From contig NZ_CP081878.1 in assembly GCF_022170825.1 (NCBI RefSeq), positions 2,997,001 to 3,061,000 on the forward strand: 64,000 bases of DNA, in the 5' to 3' direction. The notes beneath the pieces are model-generated. The model searched no databases. It had not been told where the DNA came from and worked only from the letters and a program-made list of their open reading frames with translations. Numbering within the stretch: position 1 is the stretch's first letter; each line of letters opens with the position of its first letter. This stretch comes from Exiguobacterium acetylicum (GTDB taxonomy: Bacteria; Bacillota; Bacilli; Exiguobacteriales; Exiguobacteriaceae). Both the position numbers and the translations under genes were made by a program. Below are positions 49,830 to 58,932 of this stretch, in pieces.

Positions 49830-51032
49830 TTACTGTCGACCGATTGGTACGAAATAAGAACGGTTTCCAGTAATCCGCTCACCGGCACGTACACCGATCG
49901 CACTTGGTCTTCCTCCTAAAATAAAAACACCGTACATATACGCGACTTCTCCTTCTTCCTGAAGCGGATACGTCGGTAATTCTTGATATGCTTGATAGAC
50001 AGCCGGCTGATCACGAAACGTATGTTGTTCGTTTTTCAGCATGATATCTCCGTATCCATCATGGACGGTGACAGTGTCCCCTTCACGTCCGAAGATCGGT
50101 TTTTTAACGAATGGTTGCCGGCTTGCGATGAACGCATCGGCAGATAAGTACGTCGGTAAAAAATAACGAGCAATCATCGTGTGGTCCGTTTCACTCAAGT
50201 ACGGATGATTGGTTTCGTGTAGCATCCAGACCAATGCAAGGACCGACTTAGCTTGCATTAAAAAGGCGGAAGGCGGATTGATGATTTCGAGTCGCCCCGT
50301 CTCGACGAGTTGTAATAATAAGCGTCCTAAATTTCGCCCGTCTTCATCCCGATCAAGTAACGCCATCTCGATCGGAAAGGTTTGACGATACAAAATATCG
50401 ATTCTTCTACCTGCCTCATCGTATAAGCCTTCTTCCGGGCGAATCTCTAGTGCATCAAGCGGACAGTAGGTCGCTTCATTCCAAAACGACTGCAAATATT
50501 CAGCTGTTAACCGGTCCTCGATATGGTCACCATGTGAGGTAAAAACGACATGTGGATTCTGTTTCGTCCGGTACGTCGCAGCTTCAATCGCTCGATGGAC
50601 GGCTGCCTTCAACCATTTGTTTTCCCCATCGTTTACGCTTTTAAAACCTTGCTTCTTCGCTACAGTATCATTGACTTCAAATACTTCTTTGATGAAGGTC
50701 GGCGTATCTGCATTCCACTCCATCAGTGAAATGCGATCATCTGTCGCAATAAAATCAAATCGTCCGATGACGGTCAACGGTCGCATCGTCTCAAGTCTTA
50801 AAAAAGCAAGACTTTCGGATGGGAAGCCAAGCTCGAGCAGTGCCTCATCATCCATCGATCGAAGAATCGGAAGCACTTTTTCGAATATCTGGTAAACTTC
50901 TTGTGCTGCAATATGCAATTGATCAATGCGTTCGTCCGAGATGGGCATGATCTCCGTCACAGCGTACGGTTCCCCGTCTAGCACATCCCAAAAACGATCA
51001 ATGTCTCCATAAAACGTTTCTCGCTTGTTCAT
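49830..51032 (-). CDS. Glutathionylspermidine synthase-like ATP-grasp ligase (YgiC/YjfC type)
   Basis: A 400-residue ATP-grasp enzyme of the GSP_synth family: GRFDFIATDDRISLMEWNADTPTF near residue 90, VFTSHGDHIEDRLTAEYLQ, KSVLALVWMLHE, FVKKPIFGREGDTV (ATP-binding Lys and loop), and a C-terminal YGVFILGGRPSAIGVRAGERITGN. It should ligate an amine to a carboxylate; Bacillota lack glutathionylspermidine, so the real substrate is unknown. ATG overlaps the stop of an upstream lipoprotein gene, mirroring the ygiB-ygiC pair of enterobacteria. Confidence 0.83.
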   Translation of the reverse strand: MNKRETFYGDIDRFWDVLDGEPYAVTEIMPISDERIDQLHIAAQEVYQIFEKVLPILRSMDDEALLELGFPSESLAFLRLETMRPLTVIGRFDFIATDDRISLMEWNADTPTFIKEVFEVNDTVAKKQGFKSVNDGENKWLKAAVHRAIEAATYRTKQNPHVVFTSHGDHIEDRLTAEYLQSFWNEATYCPLDALEIRPEEGLYDEAGRRIDILYRQTFPIEMALLDRDEDGRNLGRLLLQLVETGRLEIINPPSAFLMQAKSVLALVWMLHETNHPYLSETDHTMIARYFLPTYLSADAFIASRQPFVKKPIFGREGDTVTVHDGYGDIMLKNEQHTFRDQPAVYQAYQELPTYPLQEEGEVAYMYGVFILGGRPSAIGVRAGERITGNRSYFVPIGRQ

Positions 51033-51367
51033 CCGCCGAAAAAGCCGGAAGACGAGCCTGTTCCGAATCCTTTTGTCTTCGTGTTATAACTCTTCACTTC
51101 TTTTGATTTTGGCGTATATCCTTTTGTTCGCATCGCACTATGCATCAAGGCACGGGATGCGAAATAACTACCACCCCAGTAAAAGTATCCTGCATGCGTC
51201 GACGAGCTATCATCACAGTACCAAACGCCTTCGTCATTATCATACTCATAGTCATCGCAATCTGGATCGTCTGGTCGTTCTGCTCGTGCATCATCCGATC
51301 CGCAACCACTCAATGTCGTTCCAATCAACAGTGTTGCAGCTAATGTCGCTTGTTTCATCCAATTCAC
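51029..51367 (-). CDS. Small lipoprotein paired with the GSP-synthase-like ligase (YgiB/DUF1190-like position)
   Basis: A 112-residue predicted lipoprotein: MNWMKQATLAATLLIGTTLSGCGSD has a lipobox LSGC. The mature part has an Asp/Tyr-rich region with two Cys (DCDDYEYDNDEGVWYCDDSSS), an aromatic patch (GYFYWGGSYFASRA) and a Gly/Ser/Phe tail GTGSSSGFFGG, much like YgiB-type proteins. GTG 51367, eight bases after AAAGGGGA, is preferred to ATG 51358. It overlaps the ligase by four bases; the free C-terminus could be the ligase's substrate (speculation). Confidence 0.72.
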   Translation of the reverse strand: MNWMKQATLAATLLIGTTLSGCGSDDARAERPDDPDCDDYEYDNDEGVWYCDDSSSTHAGYFYWGGSYFASRALMHSAMRTKGYTPKSKEVKSYNTKTKGFGTGSSSGFFGG

Positions 51368-51505
51368 CGTCTCAGTCCCCTTTCCATTTACTCTCGTTAT
51401 GGATAGTATACGCTTTTTTAGAGAGAAAAGTTTCTTTGTTCTGCCGGAACTTTTTTTCCTCAAACGTGGTAATAGTATCTATAGAACAAAAAGGAGGATT
51501 TACGT

Positions 51506-54715: not shown

Positions 54716-54752
54716 AAGGAGGGCTCAGCGTACGGCTGAGCCCTCCTTTGCT
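54714..54752. terminator. Intrinsic terminator embedded in the 3' end of the reductase gene
   Basis: Perfect 15-bp arms AAAGGAGGGCTCAGC and GCTGAGCCCTCCTTT. The stop and last codons of the minus-strand ferric-reductase-like gene lie inside the stem; it also ends the plus-strand hydrolase. Confidence 0.85.
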
Positions 54753-55303
54753 GAAGTCCGAGTCCGTGGAACGGGACGGATTCGCATTCGGTATAGGACG
54801 AGCGTGAACATCGTCAATGTCGAGGCGGCATACCAAATCGTTGTAAACAGTGTGCCGGTATCCGTACCGACGAATAGACCATGTGCCGTCATCAATAGCC
54901 AAGCAGGTAAGACGAGCCAGTGTGTCAATTTCCAAAGTGTCTTACCTAACGTCTCTTTCAAAAAATCCGAAGTCACGAGAACGAACCCAAATAAATAGAG
55001 ACTGATTGTTCCTAGCGCATTCCAAAGCGGCTCATAAGAAGCTTGCCCCGGAATCAAGACTTCAAAGATCGTCAGTGGTGCGTATGAATCCACAATGATG
55101 AGGGTCCCATGGAGGACGATTGCCAGTAATCCTGCCCAGCCACTATATAAGTGCACGTGATGTAATCGGGCTTTTTGTTTTTTGAGTGCCGGGTATGAAC
55201 CGAGCAACCCAGCCAGAACAGAAATCGTCATGAAGAAGTGTCCACTTAATCCACTCAACCGAATCATCGTCCAGGTCGAAAATAACCATTTCATCCAGTC
55301 CAT
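54725..55303 (-). CDS. Ferric reductase-like transmembrane protein
   Basis: A 192-residue protein with about five helices and conserved candidate heme histidines (His22, His48/49, His51, His65, His128, His141), matching the ferric-reductase-like transmembrane domain (MsrQ/YedZ type). It should carry electrons across the membrane through b-type heme. The start overlaps apbE by 13 bp. With apbE and an acidic exported protein it forms an operon controlled from a single divergent promoter region. Electron donor and acceptor unknown. Confidence 0.8.
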   Translation of the reverse strand: MDWMKWLFSTWTMIRLSGLSGHFFMTISVLAGLLGSYPALKKQKARLHHVHLYSGWAGLLAIVLHGTLIIVDSYAPLTIFEVLIPGQASYEPLWNALGTISLYLFGFVLVTSDFLKETLGKTLWKLTHWLVLPAWLLMTAHGLFVGTDTGTLFTTIWYAASTLTMFTLVLYRMRIRPVPRTRTSAKEGSAVR

Positions 55304-56181
55304 ATCTCACTCGCTCCTTTCTGTTCACTTCGCCATTCCCCGGCAGTATCCAAAATCAATAATCGTCCTTTTGGAAACCAACGAAACAGCTTTTCTTGAC
55401 GTTCTGTTTCTGTCATCTGAAAGGCAAGCTTCGTCATGACTTCCGCTTCATAAAGTTGCGGGGCAGATGCCGTTACTTGAAGAATCGGGCTTACTGTCGG
55501 GCGCCCTGTTCGCCCATCTAACAAATGATGATGGGTTTGATCCCTCGTCTTCCACGATCGATAGACACGGTTTGATGTCGCGACAGCACCTTGTCGTAAT
55601 TGCATGTCTGCGACGCGTTGTTCCGTCTCTGGGTGCGTGATCATGATATTCCATGGTTCACCATCAGACCAGACAATAACGTCACCTCCCGCTTCAATCA
55701 ATCCGCGGTTCCAGTTTTTTCGCAATCGTTGCGCCGCAATCATCGCAGCCGCGCCTTTTCCGATTCCACCTAAATCGATAAAACCGCCCCCGACTCTCGT
55801 TACGTCACATCCTTCAATAATGAAAGGAGCAATTTCTGGTGGATCGACTTCTTCATACGCGACGGCTTGTGTAAAAGGAAATGATTGACGATAGCCATTG
55901 GCTTGTTGTTGCGCTAATAGGAATGGTGAAAAATAACGTTCCGTTTGTTCGAAGTATCGTGTGGCACGTGCTAACAAACGTGCTAACGGTAAGGACACCG
56001 ATAACGTGTCTCCGATTCGCAAGCGATTCAAGCGACTGACCTCACTTTGATCATCAAAACGTGACCACTGTCGATCCACATAACTGAAAAAACGGACGAG
56101 TTCCTCCCACTCTGTTTCATCAATTGGCTGATCCGTCACGAATCGTACCTGGTTATGCATCGCATACAATTGTCGCTCCAT
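55291..56181 (-). CDS. FAD:protein FMN transferase, ApbE family
   Basis: A 296-residue flavin transferase that attaches FMN to a Ser/Thr of partner redox proteins. Family features: FSYVDRQWSRFDDQSEVSRLNR, DLGGIGKGAAAMIAAQRLR, GLIEAGGDVIVW, and the flavin/metal site HHLLDGRTGRPTVSPILQVTASAP. No signal peptide or lipobox is visible, unlike many ApbE proteins, so it may act inside the cell or be exported unusually. A classic flavinylation target (FMN-binding domain) is not found in the operon. Confidence 0.88.
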   Translation of the reverse strand: MERQLYAMHNQVRFVTDQPIDETEWEELVRFFSYVDRQWSRFDDQSEVSRLNRLRIGDTLSVSLPLARLLARATRYFEQTERYFSPFLLAQQQANGYRQSFPFTQAVAYEEVDPPEIAPFIIEGCDVTRVGGGFIDLGGIGKGAAAMIAAQRLRKNWNRGLIEAGGDVIVWSDGEPWNIMITHPETEQRVADMQLRQGAVATSNRVYRSWKTRDQTHHHLLDGRTGRPTVSPILQVTASAPQLYEAEVMTKLAFQMTETERQEKLFRWFPKGRLLILDTAGEWRSEQKGASEIWTG

Positions 56182-56192
56182 CTTCCTCCTCC

Positions 56193-56498
56193 TTACCTCG
56201 AATGGCTGGACTGACCGTCACTCGATCCACCGGGTTGACTGAAGCCAGACGATTCATCTCCTTGCCATTGATCATCGTCATCTTCGTAGTATCCATCATC
56301 TTCTCCGTACTCGCTTTCATCATCACTATATTGATCTCCTTGAGATGGTAACGTCGTATCGTCTGAATACGTGTCCCCTGTCGAAACAGGTGTCGTCGAG
56401 GAATCATTCGAGCTGACACTTAATTGACCAATCGCCAGTCCAATGAAGACGGAACTGCTGAGCCCGACGAGCCATTTCGCAAATGGTTTTGGTTTCAT
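56193..56498 (-). CDS. Small membrane-anchored acidic protein
   Basis: A 101-residue protein: basic N-terminus and one helix (FAKWLVGLSSSVFIGLAIGQL), then a Ser/Thr/Asp/Tyr-rich acidic tail with runs such as DDGYYEDDDDQW and a GGSSDGQSSHSR end. First gene of the apbE/ferric-reductase operon. The acidic extracytoplasmic tail could bind metal cations or be flavinylated (speculation). GGGAGAGGAAAC precedes ATG 56498; the open frame to 56549 overlaps the promoter. Confidence 0.7.
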   Translation of the reverse strand: MKPKPFAKWLVGLSSSVFIGLAIGQLSVSSNDSSTTPVSTGDTYSDDTTLPSQGDQYSDDESEYGEDDGYYEDDDDQWQGDESSGFSQPGGSSDGQSSHSR

Positions 56499-56526: not shown

Positions 56527-56559
56527 ACTGTATCGAAAAAAACTGACAACTAACTGACG
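56527..56559 (-). promoter_or_regulatory. Promoter of apbE operon with direct-repeat operator
   Basis: On the minus strand GTCAGTTAGTTGTCAG (two GTCAG units 11 bp apart; 56543-56558), exactly 10 bp, then TACAGT (56527-56532). The same string and spacing occurs at 58446-58477. Typical of OmpR-family activator sites that replace the -35. Confidence 0.75.
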
Positions 56560-56599
56560 GCAACTATGGGATAATGAGAAAAAAAGAGGAGAGATGTTC

Positions 56600-57277
56600 A
56601 TGCGGGTTTTGGTGGCAGAAGATGATCAGCGTCTTGCGAAGATGTTACGACTCCATTTGGAGCGGGCAGGATATCAGGTCGATGTTGCGCAGGATGGAGC
56701 CGAGGCACTCCTTCAATGTCAGACGTATCGCTATGACTTACTCGTTCTCGATTGGATGATGCCTCGCAAGAGCGGAGTCGAAGTCGCCGCTACCTTACGT
56801 CAAGAACAGTTTGAAGGCGGCATCTTGATGCTGACTGCTCGCGATACGGAAATCGATCTCGTCCATGGTCTCGATAGTGGCGCCGATGACTATCTCGTCA
56901 AACCGTTTCAATCAAATGAACTTTTGGCACGACTGCGCGCGCTCAGTCGTCGTCAGCAAAAAGCGTTTGTTTCGACGGTCACTTTTCACGGGCTGGTTCT
57001 CGACATGTCCTCACAAACGATCTCTTACGAGCGACAGCCAATCGATTTAACACGACGTGAATTCGAATTCCTTTCTTTGCTCTTAAGACGCCCTGAACAG
57101 GTGATGAGTCGTGAATTAATCATCGAGGTCGTATGGGGGATTGGTGCTGATATTACCGATAACGCCCTTGATGCGCTTGTTCGACTCGTTCGAAAAAAAA
57201 TAGATGCTGTCGGAGCACCGAATCTGATTCGGACAGTTCGCGGGTTCGGTTATCGTTTAGGTGATCCGCATGCTTGA
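56600..57277 (+). CDS. OmpR-family response regulator
   Basis: A 225-residue regulator: LVAEDDQRL (acidic pair), phosphoacceptor Asp51 in LLVLDWMMPRKSG, MLTARD and YLVKPFQS, then a winged helix (LTRREFEFLSLLLRRPEQVMSRELIIEVVWG; LVRKKIDAVG; RTVRGFGYRL). ATG 56600 fits the AGAGGAG site better than 56594. Diverges from the apbE operon and overlaps its kinase by eight bases. The flanking direct-repeat promoters are its likely targets. Confidence 0.92.
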   Translation: MRVLVAEDDQRLAKMLRLHLERAGYQVDVAQDGAEALLQCQTYRYDLLVLDWMMPRKSGVEVAATLRQEQFEGGILMLTARDTEIDLVHGLDSGADDYLVKPFQSNELLARLRALSRRQQKAFVSTVTFHGLVLDMSSQTISYERQPIDLTRREFEFLSLLLRRPEQVMSRELIIEVVWGIGADITDNALDALVRLVRKKIDAVGAPNLIRTVRGFGYRLGDPHA

Positions 57278-58439
57278 ATCGATTCGAAAACGACTGACGT
57301 TACTATTCAGTGGTTCATTTTTTCTTGTATTGGTCCTCATCCTAGTCGGTGTGTATGTCACGAACGCTCAATTGCTGAATCGAATGGAATTGAATCAATT
57401 AAAGGGAGTGTCAGATCGAGATATCTTTGAACGGATCGAGCACGGAGAAGATCAATTCATCCGAAATCCGATTTACTTTCAGTTACTCGATGATTCAGGA
57501 AATGAACGCTATGCAAGTCTGCCGCCAGACGTCGAGACGAAAACACTGCGCCGTTTTTTAAGGTCGGATGATACGACGAAACAAGTGGAGTGGGATGATC
57601 GACACTTCTTAGTGTATCAACGGAGTACCGAAGAAGGACGACTACTGCTGATGAAGGACATCTCTCCGACCGAAGATACCTTACAGCGATTGATCGCTGT
57701 TCTTGCGGGGATTGCGGTTCTTGCAACAATCATTCTGACATTAATCGGATACGTCCTTGCTGGTCGAGCCGTGGTTCCGGTGCAACAGGCATTCGATCGA
57801 CAACGTCGTTTTACGTCCGATGCTTCACACGAACTACGAACACCACTGACGATCGTTTATAGCGGGATTGAATTACTGGAAGCAGAACCACTTTCGAGTG
57901 AAGGACGCACGATTCTAGAAGATATCAAAGCGGAGACGGCAGGCATGCAGTATCTAGTATCTGATCTATTATTGCTCGCTCGAGAAGGACAATCTTCACC
58001 GAAACAGGAAGTTGATCTCAGTTCGCTCGTCCAGAAGACCGTTGAACGTTTTCAGCACGCCTACTCGGATCGCGTCATTCATACTTCGATTATGCCAAAC
58101 TTACGCATGACAGGTGATGCTCATCAACTGAATCGCTTATTGACGGTCTTTCTTGAAAATGCACTCGTATACAGCGATGATGCCATCGATGTATCGCTTG
58201 AAGAGACAGCGACAGAGCGTCAATTAACGATCCATGATCGTGGAATCGGAATCGATTCCGACCAACAAACCAAAATATTCGAGCGTTTTTACCGAGGTGA
58301 CCATTCACGTCACGGAACGGGGACTGGCCTCGGCTTATCGATTGCCGAGTCCATCGTCGAGCAACATGGCGGTACGATTTCCATTGATTCGACGCTCGGT
58401 GAAGGTACACGCTTCATCATTCATTTCCCAACTCTTTAA
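57270..58439 (+). CDS. Membrane sensor histidine kinase
   Basis: A 389-residue kinase: TM1 about 10-32, extracytoplasmic sensor of about 105 residues, TM2 about 141-164, phosphoacceptor His187 in FTSDASHELRTPLTI, and an ATPase domain (FLENALVYSDD, DRGIGID, GTGTGLGLSIAESIVE). HAMP is short or degenerate. Partner of the adjacent response regulator. The signal could be a redox or metal condition given the apbE/ferric-reductase targets (inference). Confidence 0.9.
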   Translation: MLESIRKRLTLLFSGSFFLVLVLILVGVYVTNAQLLNRMELNQLKGVSDRDIFERIEHGEDQFIRNPIYFQLLDDSGNERYASLPPDVETKTLRRFLRSDDTTKQVEWDDRHFLVYQRSTEEGRLLLMKDISPTEDTLQRLIAVLAGIAVLATIILTLIGYVLAGRAVVPVQQAFDRQRRFTSDASHELRTPLTIVYSGIELLEAEPLSSEGRTILEDIKAETAGMQYLVSDLLLLAREGQSSPKQEVDLSSLVQKTVERFQHAYSDRVIHTSIMPNLRMTGDAHQLNRLLTVFLENALVYSDDAIDVSLEETATERQLTIHDRGIGIDSDQQTKIFERFYRGDHSRHGTGTGLGLSIAESIVEQHGGTISIDSTLGEGTRFIIHFPTL

Positions 58440-58445
58440 ACCTAT

Positions 58446-58477
58446 GTCAGTTAGCTGTCAGATAAGCAGGGTACAGT
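58446..58477 (+). promoter_or_regulatory. Promoter of the DUF2231 gene with the same direct-repeat operator
   Basis: GTCAGTTAGCTGTCAG (58446-58461), 10 bp, TACAGT (58472-58477): same order, spacing and -10 as the apbE-operon promoter at 56527-56559, differing in one operator base. Confidence 0.75.
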
Positions 58478-58518: not shown

Positions 58519-58932
58519 ATGTTGGGGAACGTACCGCTTCATCCACTTCTTGTCCATGCACCGATCGCACTTTTATTATTCGCAACGTTATTGTTACTCG
58601 TCAGTCTGAAATGGACGCAATTCAAATTGTTCGCCCTCTTTACGCTAGTCGTTGGTCTGATTTCTGGAGTTGCTGCCTATTTGTCTGGAGACGGAGCAGA
58701 AGAGTATGCGGAAGCGAACTTAAGCAGTGTCACCCATGCCGCCATTGAAAATCATGAGCACTTCGCGTTATTCAGCCTTGTTGCTTTTGGCATCTCGCTG
58801 TTATTCCTTTTATTTGGTTACCGCTCGAATAAAAAAATGTTTCTGTTACTCAGTTTCATCGTTGCAATCGTCGGGAGCGCGCTGCTCGCTTACACTGGGC
58901 ATCTTGGTGGTCAGATGGTGTATGCAAAATAA
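58519..58932 (+). CDS. DUF2231 membrane protein
   Basis: A 137-residue protein with four helices. It opens with PLHPLLVHAPIALLLFATLLLL, the DUF2231 motif with two His and Pro, and has further histidines at helix ends (HAAIENHEHFALF; YTGHLGGQMVY). Family members often accompany redox or cytochrome proteins and the His pattern could bind heme (inference). It has its own promoter after the two-component genes. TAAGGAGG precedes the ATG. Confidence 0.85.
   Translation: MLGNVPLHPLLVHAPIALLLFATLLLLVSLKWTQFKLFALFTLVVGLISGVAAYLSGDGAEEYAEANLSSVTHAAIENHEHFALFSLVAFGISLLFLLFGYRSNKKMFLLLSFIVAIVGSALLAYTGHLGGQMVYAK

Follow-up and report, generated by a model that had tools for sequence, protein, structure and literature searches.

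What does a two-component system regulate when it is enclosed by two promoter-like sites of the same design? At one locus of Exiguobacterium acetylicum, the genes for a response regulator and a sensor histidine kinase lie between two such sites, one facing an operon for a small acidic protein, an ApbE-family flavin transferase and a ferric-reductase-like membrane protein, and the other facing a gene for a DUF2231 membrane protein. The locus belongs to a 64,000-nucleotide stretch of contig NZ_CP081878.1 (assembly GCF_022170825.1, positions 2,997,001 to 3,061,000), which we refer to as the window and to which the coordinates below refer. An initial annotation of this DNA had proposed that the two sites define a candidate redox regulon of the enclosed two-component system. 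The existence of a dedicated regulon, probably an activating one, is well supported, with binding of the regulator predicted from the sequence, and we consider it probable that the locus is a self-regulated electron-transfer module that includes a flavinylated small protein. Its features, in order of position, are as follows.

54725-55303, minus strand: Ferric_reduct/MsrQ-like membrane protein of 192 amino acids, a predicted heme-b electron carrier with invariant His22, 48, 51, 65, 128 and 141
55291-56181, minus strand: ApbE-family FAD:protein FMN transferase (FAD, flavin adenine dinucleotide; FMN, flavin mononucleotide) without a signal peptide, the only PF02424 match in its genome
56193-56498, minus strand: small acidic single-anchor protein of 101 amino acids with C-terminus SDGQSSHSR, the predicted ApbE substrate, with predicted FMN acceptor Ser100
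56527-56532, minus strand: -10-like TACAGT, 10 base pairs (bp) downstream of site 1
56543-56558, minus strand: site 1, direct repeat GTCAGTTAGTTGTCAG with an 11-bp period, facing the operon and lying inside the divergent regulator promoter region
56567-56575, plus strand: extended -10 TGGGATAAT of the regulator gene, a presumed promoter element, invariant in 15/15 aligned genomes
56600-57277, plus strand: OmpR/PhoB-type response regulator, recognition helix N-A-L-D-A-L-V-R-L-V-R-K-K
57270-58439, plus strand: sensor histidine kinase with HisKA and HATPase_c domain matches and a variable N-terminal sensor region
58446-58461, plus strand: site 2, direct repeat GTCAGTTAGCTGTCAG, before the DUF2231 gene
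58472-58477, plus strand: -10-like TACAGT (TAAAGT in most relatives), 10 bp downstream of site 2
58519-58932, plus strand: DUF2231 membrane protein, a predicted regulon member, with invariant His8, 13, 79 and 128

The coordinates and a domain scan of the six genes bear out the gene order given in the initial annotation. Its count of two units faced by the sites holds as far as it goes, but site 1 also falls within the regulator gene's own promoter region, which makes three units; since this site sits between divergent genes, the regulator gene is a third likely target. The pattern GTCAGTTAGYTGTCAG-N10-TACAGT occurs without mismatch at the two places claimed for it, 56527-56558 (minus strand) and 58446-58477 (plus strand). 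With up to three mismatches the window holds no further match to the full pattern, and 100 dinucleotide shuffles give none. In the whole genome (3.36 Mb), a wider regulon did not emerge with up to two mismatches to the genus pattern given below, only the two sites turning up. The 16-bp repeat alone, at up to three mismatches, has 27 matches genome-wide, of which just the two sites have fewer than two mismatches; the reversed control has 89, and matches with three mismatches are therefore noise. A third repeat match at 56413-56428, with three mismatches, lies within the acidic-protein coding sequence, is one of 23 three-mismatch matches and was dropped.

It could be argued that the pair of sites arose by duplication of a stretch, or was left behind by a rearrangement, and has no function, as their cores are nearly identical in the window genome. 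The likeness is limited, however, to the repeat and the -10, while the 10-bp spacer and the flanks differ; in 15 aligned genomes both sites stand out as conserved amid variable sequence, and families whose gene order differs also have this layout ahead of the operon and ahead of the regulator gene. This explanation is hardly credible, and an origin by chance or duplication was rejected on the shuffles, the genome search and the conservation in the genus.

That conservation was followed in a sample of 19 Exiguobacterium genomes. The pattern RTCAGYTARYTRTCAG-N10-TAMAGT, at up to two mismatches, occurs exactly twice per genome in 14 of the 19. G014 has a single match, G002, G005, G010 and G011 have none, and the reversed control has no match in the 19 genomes. 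The concern, raised at the outset, that the motif might be lost from relatives that keep the gene set was not borne out: wherever the whole module is present both sites are present as well, in 14/15 cases at up to two mismatches. In G005, the most distant module carrier, GTCAG-N6-GTCAG is found at both places, three mismatches from the window repeat, and the core and the -10 have diverged. Site 1 retains TCAG-N7-TCAG in all 15 genomes with the whole module, and site 2 reads GTCAG-N6-RTCAG in 16/16 aligned genus loci, the part-deleted G014 included. Where genomes differ from one another, the two sites within a genome remain alike, sharing a GTTA or GCTA core, or an ATCAG second half in G015 and G007, which fits one protein reading both.

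The kinase orthologue is full-length in 15/19 genomes and a fragment in G014. In the genus apbE occurs nowhere but in the module, and it is missing or truncated in the genomes with a deleted module: 15 genomes have one intact copy there, G002 has a remnant, and a PF02424 search found none in G010, G011 and G014. At least three distinct deletions with differing end points are seen, each taking the apbE start, the small-protein gene, site 1 and the regulator together. In G014 (L054) the beginning of the ferric-reductase gene is fused to mid-kinase sequence; G002 (L114) retains the last 104 apbE codons, the ferric-reductase gene and the end of the DUF2231 gene; and G010 (L115) has only a 30-residue ferric-reductase remnant. 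An orthologue search in G011 returned no ferric-reductase, DUF2231 or kinase gene, and the ferric-reductase profile matches nothing in the 19 genomes listed for a sister genus (g2).

Is this promoter design confined to Exiguobacterium? The ferric-reductase-like profile matches 104 of 398 genomes of the class Bacilli, 18 of them Exiguobacterium, and in one further family it matches 20 of 121. Among the 86 non-genus genomes with a match, 38 were taken, mainly by score, leaving out family f7 and most of genus g28; 15 of the 20 matching genomes of the further family were newly added, five being already included, and another search (6/11 genomes) added no loci. We read 54 loci outside the genus and kept the 47, from 14 families, in which apbE adjoins the ferric-reductase gene, excluding L110, L113, L125, L135, L137, L138 and L140, where it does not. 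A locus counts as having a regulator when one of at least 150 bits lies within the stretch examined, which holds for 35 of the 47 and leaves 12 without; L127 has one of 137 bits. Several operons are preceded by sequences resembling TTTTCA-N5-TTTTCAG-N10-TATAAT, which share the period of 11 bp and the gap of 10 bp with the Exiguobacterium sites. We scored this architecture as TCAG-N7-TCAG-N10-TANNNT over 11 positions and called a site at 10 or more. At period 11 and gap 10, scores of at least 10 were reached in 28/47 operon windows and 16/35 regulator windows. Over periods of 8-14 and gaps of 6-14 the highest other cell holds 3, and 40 shuffles average 0.17 (operon) and 0.23 (regulator) with a maximum of 2. 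The score, like the tail pattern described below, was devised after seeing some of the sequences, and the grid and shuffles are thus a control rather than an independent prediction. The direct-repeat spacing of 11 bp at the -35 position and the fixed gap to the -10, both pointed out initially for the window, are found in the window, the genus and the grid of other Bacilli.

The operon site goes with the regulator. It is found in 28/35 loci that have one and in 0/12 that do not (Fisher p 1e-6, uncorrected for relatedness), and the same contrast by genus gives 14/18 against 0/9. The window regulator matches Response_reg (100.6 bits) and Trans_reg_C (80.3 bits) above both cut-offs. Identity with PhoB was rejected (TIGR02154, 199.6 against an equivalog cut-off of 296.2), as was identity with RppA (NF041734, 220.9 against 250). 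In a tree that took 15 of the 16 other Trans_reg_C genes of the window genome, the 35 module regulators and 15 Exiguobacterium regulators fall into one clade (52 rows including two extras; support 98/86, the bootstrap being rough and not settled), separate from the 15 window-genome paralogues and from two regulators of loci without adjoining apbE. Nearly all regulators of the clade share the recognition-helix signature D-A-x-x-[KR]-L-x-R-[KR]-K.

PhoB is an OmpR-family regulator, and the phoA promoter sequence has the same geometry of an 11-bp period and a 10-bp gap. Because this is the geometry of PhoB-activated promoters, activation by a head-to-tail regulator dimer is the most likely mode of action. 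It is conceivable that the sites are bound by some other regulator, or that they are repressor sites of the enclosed one, so that the enclosed two-component system does not activate the module. In favor, the repeat points away from the regulator gene, which would allow repression on that side. Against this view, the site falls below 10 of 11 in all 12 operon loci without a nearby regulator of at least 150 bits, and in the 14 relatives searched the exact consensus sites outside the module are confined to a locus with a further regulator of this type. The repeat also takes the place of a -35 element, at a constant 10 bp from the -10, which is what activation predicts. We judge both variants quite improbable and retain activation by the enclosed system.

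The 14 relatives were picked among the module loci already read, mostly those with TTTTCA-type sites, and their genomes were searched with a 16-position consensus. There are 17 exact matches, 15 at the module and two elsewhere in G132; among the 15, the match in L125 stands 625 bp upstream of apbE and ahead of the small frame. With up to one mismatch the total is 49, against 2 for the reversed control, and of the 32 one-mismatch matches four lie at the module and 28 elsewhere, 10 of which were examined with their surroundings. The two outlying exact sites in G132 (L209:3387-5935) stand before a second regulator-kinase pair of this kind and before a stand-alone small protein ending in SQAS, with no apbE adjoining, which suggests that ApbE can act in trans on such a flavin tail protein. 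In all three genomes of genus g27 that were searched, one-mismatch sites precede a gene for a PepSY-domain protein (L205:968, L206:1423, L207:1034; in L206 the frame as called is short, beginning well downstream), and this gene probably belongs to the regulon of that genus as well. Two further one-mismatch sites in G104 (L208:2298 and 2805) lie beside another such regulator-kinase pair, its regulator 44% identical, and face the gene on its other side, and single ones in G111 and G153 (L210:1085, L212:2274) precede genes for two membrane proteins that resemble each other, one of which matches cytochrome b561 very weakly (E 0.07). No related genes were seen around the one-mismatch sites of L211, L213 and L214.

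If the regulon is dedicated, what would ApbE modify within it? In the sections of PMC12052999 that describe it, the ApbE motif is D-x-x-[S/T]-G-A-[S/T], and its last residue receives FMN. The small acidic protein of the window ends in D94-G-Q-S-S-H-S100-R101, which has the spacing of this flavinylation motif. A small open reading frame (ORF) precedes apbE in all 47 relatives, 44 of them found by a script requiring a hydrophobic N-terminus and three by hand, and 38 of the 44 script-found proteins have K/R-W within the first 40 residues. The linker varies in length and sequence while the C-terminus is fixed: [S/T]xx[S/T] stands at the very end in 45/47 relatives against 9/522 control ORFs, and with up to two trailing residues in 46/47 relatives and 15/15 Exiguobacterium proteins against 18/522 controls. 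The fuller form [D/E]-x-x-[S/T]-x-x-[S/T] within two residues of the C-terminus is found in 23/47 relatives and 15/15 Exiguobacterium proteins against 1/522 controls. An earlier count of the tail motif had given 42 of 44 proteins against 11 of 524 controls. Tails include DRKTKRT, DRETRRT, DNRTRRS and THAS, and four relatives end in canonical TGAS or SGAS. Nine of the small proteins were scanned with Pfam and/or NCBIfam and no family reached its cut-off; a stalk-domain-like (Cu_amine_oxidN1) protein is encoded by the first gene in 24/47 loci, and the five scanned all match that family. An internal SGFS of the acidic protein was rejected as a flavin site, its last Ser being N, D or E in other species.

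The transferase itself scores above the family cut-off (PF02424, 128.6 against 25.6 bits), and a profile search of PDB sequences aligned it with solved ApbE proteins over DLGGIxKG, VATS and HHLLDxxTGxP (1vrm, E 2e-19; 6nxi, E 3e-15). FMN_bind (PF04205) has no match in any of the 19 genus genomes, a search that did not extend to DUF2271, DUF3570, Flavodoxin_4 and FMN_red substrates. The tail motif, the absence of FMN_bind from the genus and the alignment with solved flavin transferases make the small acidic protein the likely substrate of ApbE, a role that the initial annotation did not propose, with Ser100 as its likely FMN acceptor. A rival view accepts the regulon and takes the C-terminus for a docking or sorting tail, recognized by the heme protein, a protease or a translocase, with ApbE modifying another protein. 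In its favor, most members have other residues in place of G-A, several have strongly basic tails (KTRRS, RKTKRT) resembling interaction tails, and ApbE looks cytosolic while the small-protein tail is probably outside. The S/T-x-x-S/T spacing and its D/E-first form, at the frequencies given above, speak against it, as do the four members with canonical [S/T]GA[S/T], the small ORF standing just before apbE in 47/47 loci and the genus having no FMN_bind protein. The docking tail is in our opinion unlikely, though less so than the alternatives to activation discussed above.

In the scheme that we propose for the module, the kinase would sense an envelope signal and phosphorylate the response regulator, a head-to-tail dimer of which would bind the 11-bp direct repeat at the -35 position and recruit RNA polymerase to the -10 located 10 bp downstream, as PhoB does. 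The regulator would thereby switch on the operon of small protein, apbE and ferric-reductase-like gene, the DUF2231 gene and, via the shared divergent site, its own gene and that of the kinase. ApbE would attach FMN to Ser100, the next-to-last residue of the acidic membrane-anchored protein, and the flavin tail would exchange electrons with the predicted heme-b carrier, and perhaps also with the DUF2231 protein, so that electrons may be carried across or along the membrane. The "redox" character of the regulon is something that we infer from its target genes. More broadly, we lean toward a new class of ApbE substrates, namely small membrane-anchored proteins, spread over many Bacilli families, that would carry FMN on a Ser/Thr 0-2 residues from the C-terminus with D-x-x-[S/T]-x-x-[S/T] spacing and G-A mostly lost, would be modified from the cytosolic side and would pass electrons to a stripped-down heme-b reductase, in many lineages under a PhoB-like two-component system and a promoter code common to several families.

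The membership of DUF2231, part of the original proposal, is supported in part. DUF2231 homologues lie near a ferric-reductase gene at five non-genus loci; in family f3 two of three have a site of 10 or 11 of 11 (the third gene being called short), but neither the f25 nor the f16 locus, both without adjoining apbE, has one. With two of the five loci carrying the site, the inclusion of DUF2231 has some independent support. Its predicted structure has four helices with a mean predicted local distance difference test score (pLDDT) of 73.4, and that of the ferric-reductase-like protein is all-helical with low confidence (pLDDT 65.5).

Several points weigh against the module and the substrate as we read them, the four substrate families outside the search among them. 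The protein initially described as heme b reductase-like, next to apbE, matches PF01794 at 22.2 bits (E 1.5e-4), under the Pfam cut-off of 28 bits. The flavin transferase, which the initial annotation placed in an extracytoplasmic module, has no signal peptide as judged by reading; neither a lipoprotein nor a secretion signal is apparent, a hydrophobic N-terminus being absent from the window protein (by reading) and from 44 relatives (17-residue hydropathy at most 1.2). Lysines at the N-terminus of the small protein, before the anchor, suggest that its tail is outside, and with an ApbE lacking a signal peptide our scheme does not account for the place of modification: the tail would have to be modified prior to its export, or the small protein would have to be inserted the other way round. 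The window protein also fails the strict D-x-x-[S/T]-G-A-[S/T], because S-H stands in place of G-A and one residue follows the acceptor, and the [S/T]GA[S/T] C-terminus is missing in 43/47 relatives and 15/15 Exiguobacterium proteins. As to the promoter, five of the 35 regulator-bearing loci score below 10 of 11 in both windows, matches of at least 10 are confined to five families with 18 of the 28 coming from one (f3), and one of the 16 regulator-window matches, that of L129, falls within the coding region of the ferric-reductase gene and probably arose by chance. Finally, a plasmid-borne relative in Alicyclobacillus fastidiosus has the regulator and the kinase, but its first protein is without the tail motif and no site exceeds 9 of 11.

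How does the module compare with known systems? Flavinylation clusters with an MsrQ-like (PF01794) protein are described in the main text of Meheust et al. (2021, PMC8238504) as typically including a gene for an FMN-binding domain and as occurring mainly in Actinobacteria. There a Ferric_reduct-type membrane protein, proposed to carry electrons across the membrane to the flavinylated protein, is encoded with ApbE, and the window locus resembles this with a Ferric_reduct-like protein that scores below the family cut-off. Unlike these clusters, its genus has no FMN_bind gene, the candidate substrate is small with a C-terminal motif, no signal peptide is seen on ApbE, and the operon is accompanied by a two-component system of its own and by a conserved promoter. 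In that main text "two-component" occurs in a reference title only, and "transcriptional regulat" and "DUF2231" were not found; "ferric reductase" does not occur in the main text of PMC11334425. The direct repeats and their strict distance to the core promoter are shared with pho-box promoters, as characterized in parts of PMC10294691. The regulator, far under the PhoB equivalog cut-off, differs in that nothing in this analysis ties it to phosphate. The best NCBIfam matches of regulator and kinase are to RppA/RppB, a cyanobacterial two-component system, but both scores are under the curated cut-offs (220.9 against 250; 185.6 against 400). Cytosolic ApbE proteins exist, and sections of PMC12052999 describe one from Klebsiella, like that of the window without a signal peptide, which modifies fumarate reductase from the cytosolic side; there the substrate is soluble, whereas here it would be a membrane-anchored small protein with the motif at its C-terminus.

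Our literature searches turned up neither this regulon nor a family of C-terminal flavin tails, nothing joining DUF2231 with a response regulator or an FMN transferase with Exiguobacterium, and nothing joining any two of FMN transferase, ferric reductase-like protein and stalk domain, in line with the earlier remark that no description of the gene set as one system was known. As MsrQ-like flavinylation clusters are already known, we read the small-protein tail substrate and the dedicated regulon as a new variant of flavinylated electron-transfer systems. The main text of the flavinylation survey notes that genomes with orphan ApbE remain and suggests that less prevalent substrates are still to be identified (PMC8238504). 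The tail reading supplies a concrete substrate family, a mutable residue and a regulon whose site can be read from raw sequence. If true, it also poses the puzzle of how a flavin added by an ApbE without an export signal gets outside, or whether the tail faces inward. Were the tails flavin tags, the recognition motif, which is used for the flavin-tagging of proteins (sections of PMC12052999), would be broadened.

A few observations stand beside the main argument. The Alicyclobacillus fastidiosus relative, on plasmid NZ_CP104068.1 (L157), is a related set followed downstream by genes for an NAD(P)/FAD oxidoreductase and a ferredoxin. Plasmid NZ_CP085715.1 of Peribacillus asahii (L156) has a decayed copy of the operon amid copper-resistance genes, in which apbE is annotated in two pieces and the small ORF is interrupted and unannotated; its single site-like match of 10 of 11 lies about 290 bp before the stalk gene. 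DUF2231 paralogues occur elsewhere in three Exiguobacterium genomes (L116, L117, L119) without the site, each preceded by a gene of similar size that has a VTT domain in L116, where it was scanned. Within the window, an acidic, Cys-containing probable lipoprotein with a Gly/Ser-rich tail is encoded at 51029-51463 (minus strand), and it adjoins the gene at 49830-51032, whose 400-amino-acid product presumably resembles glutathionylspermidine synthases.

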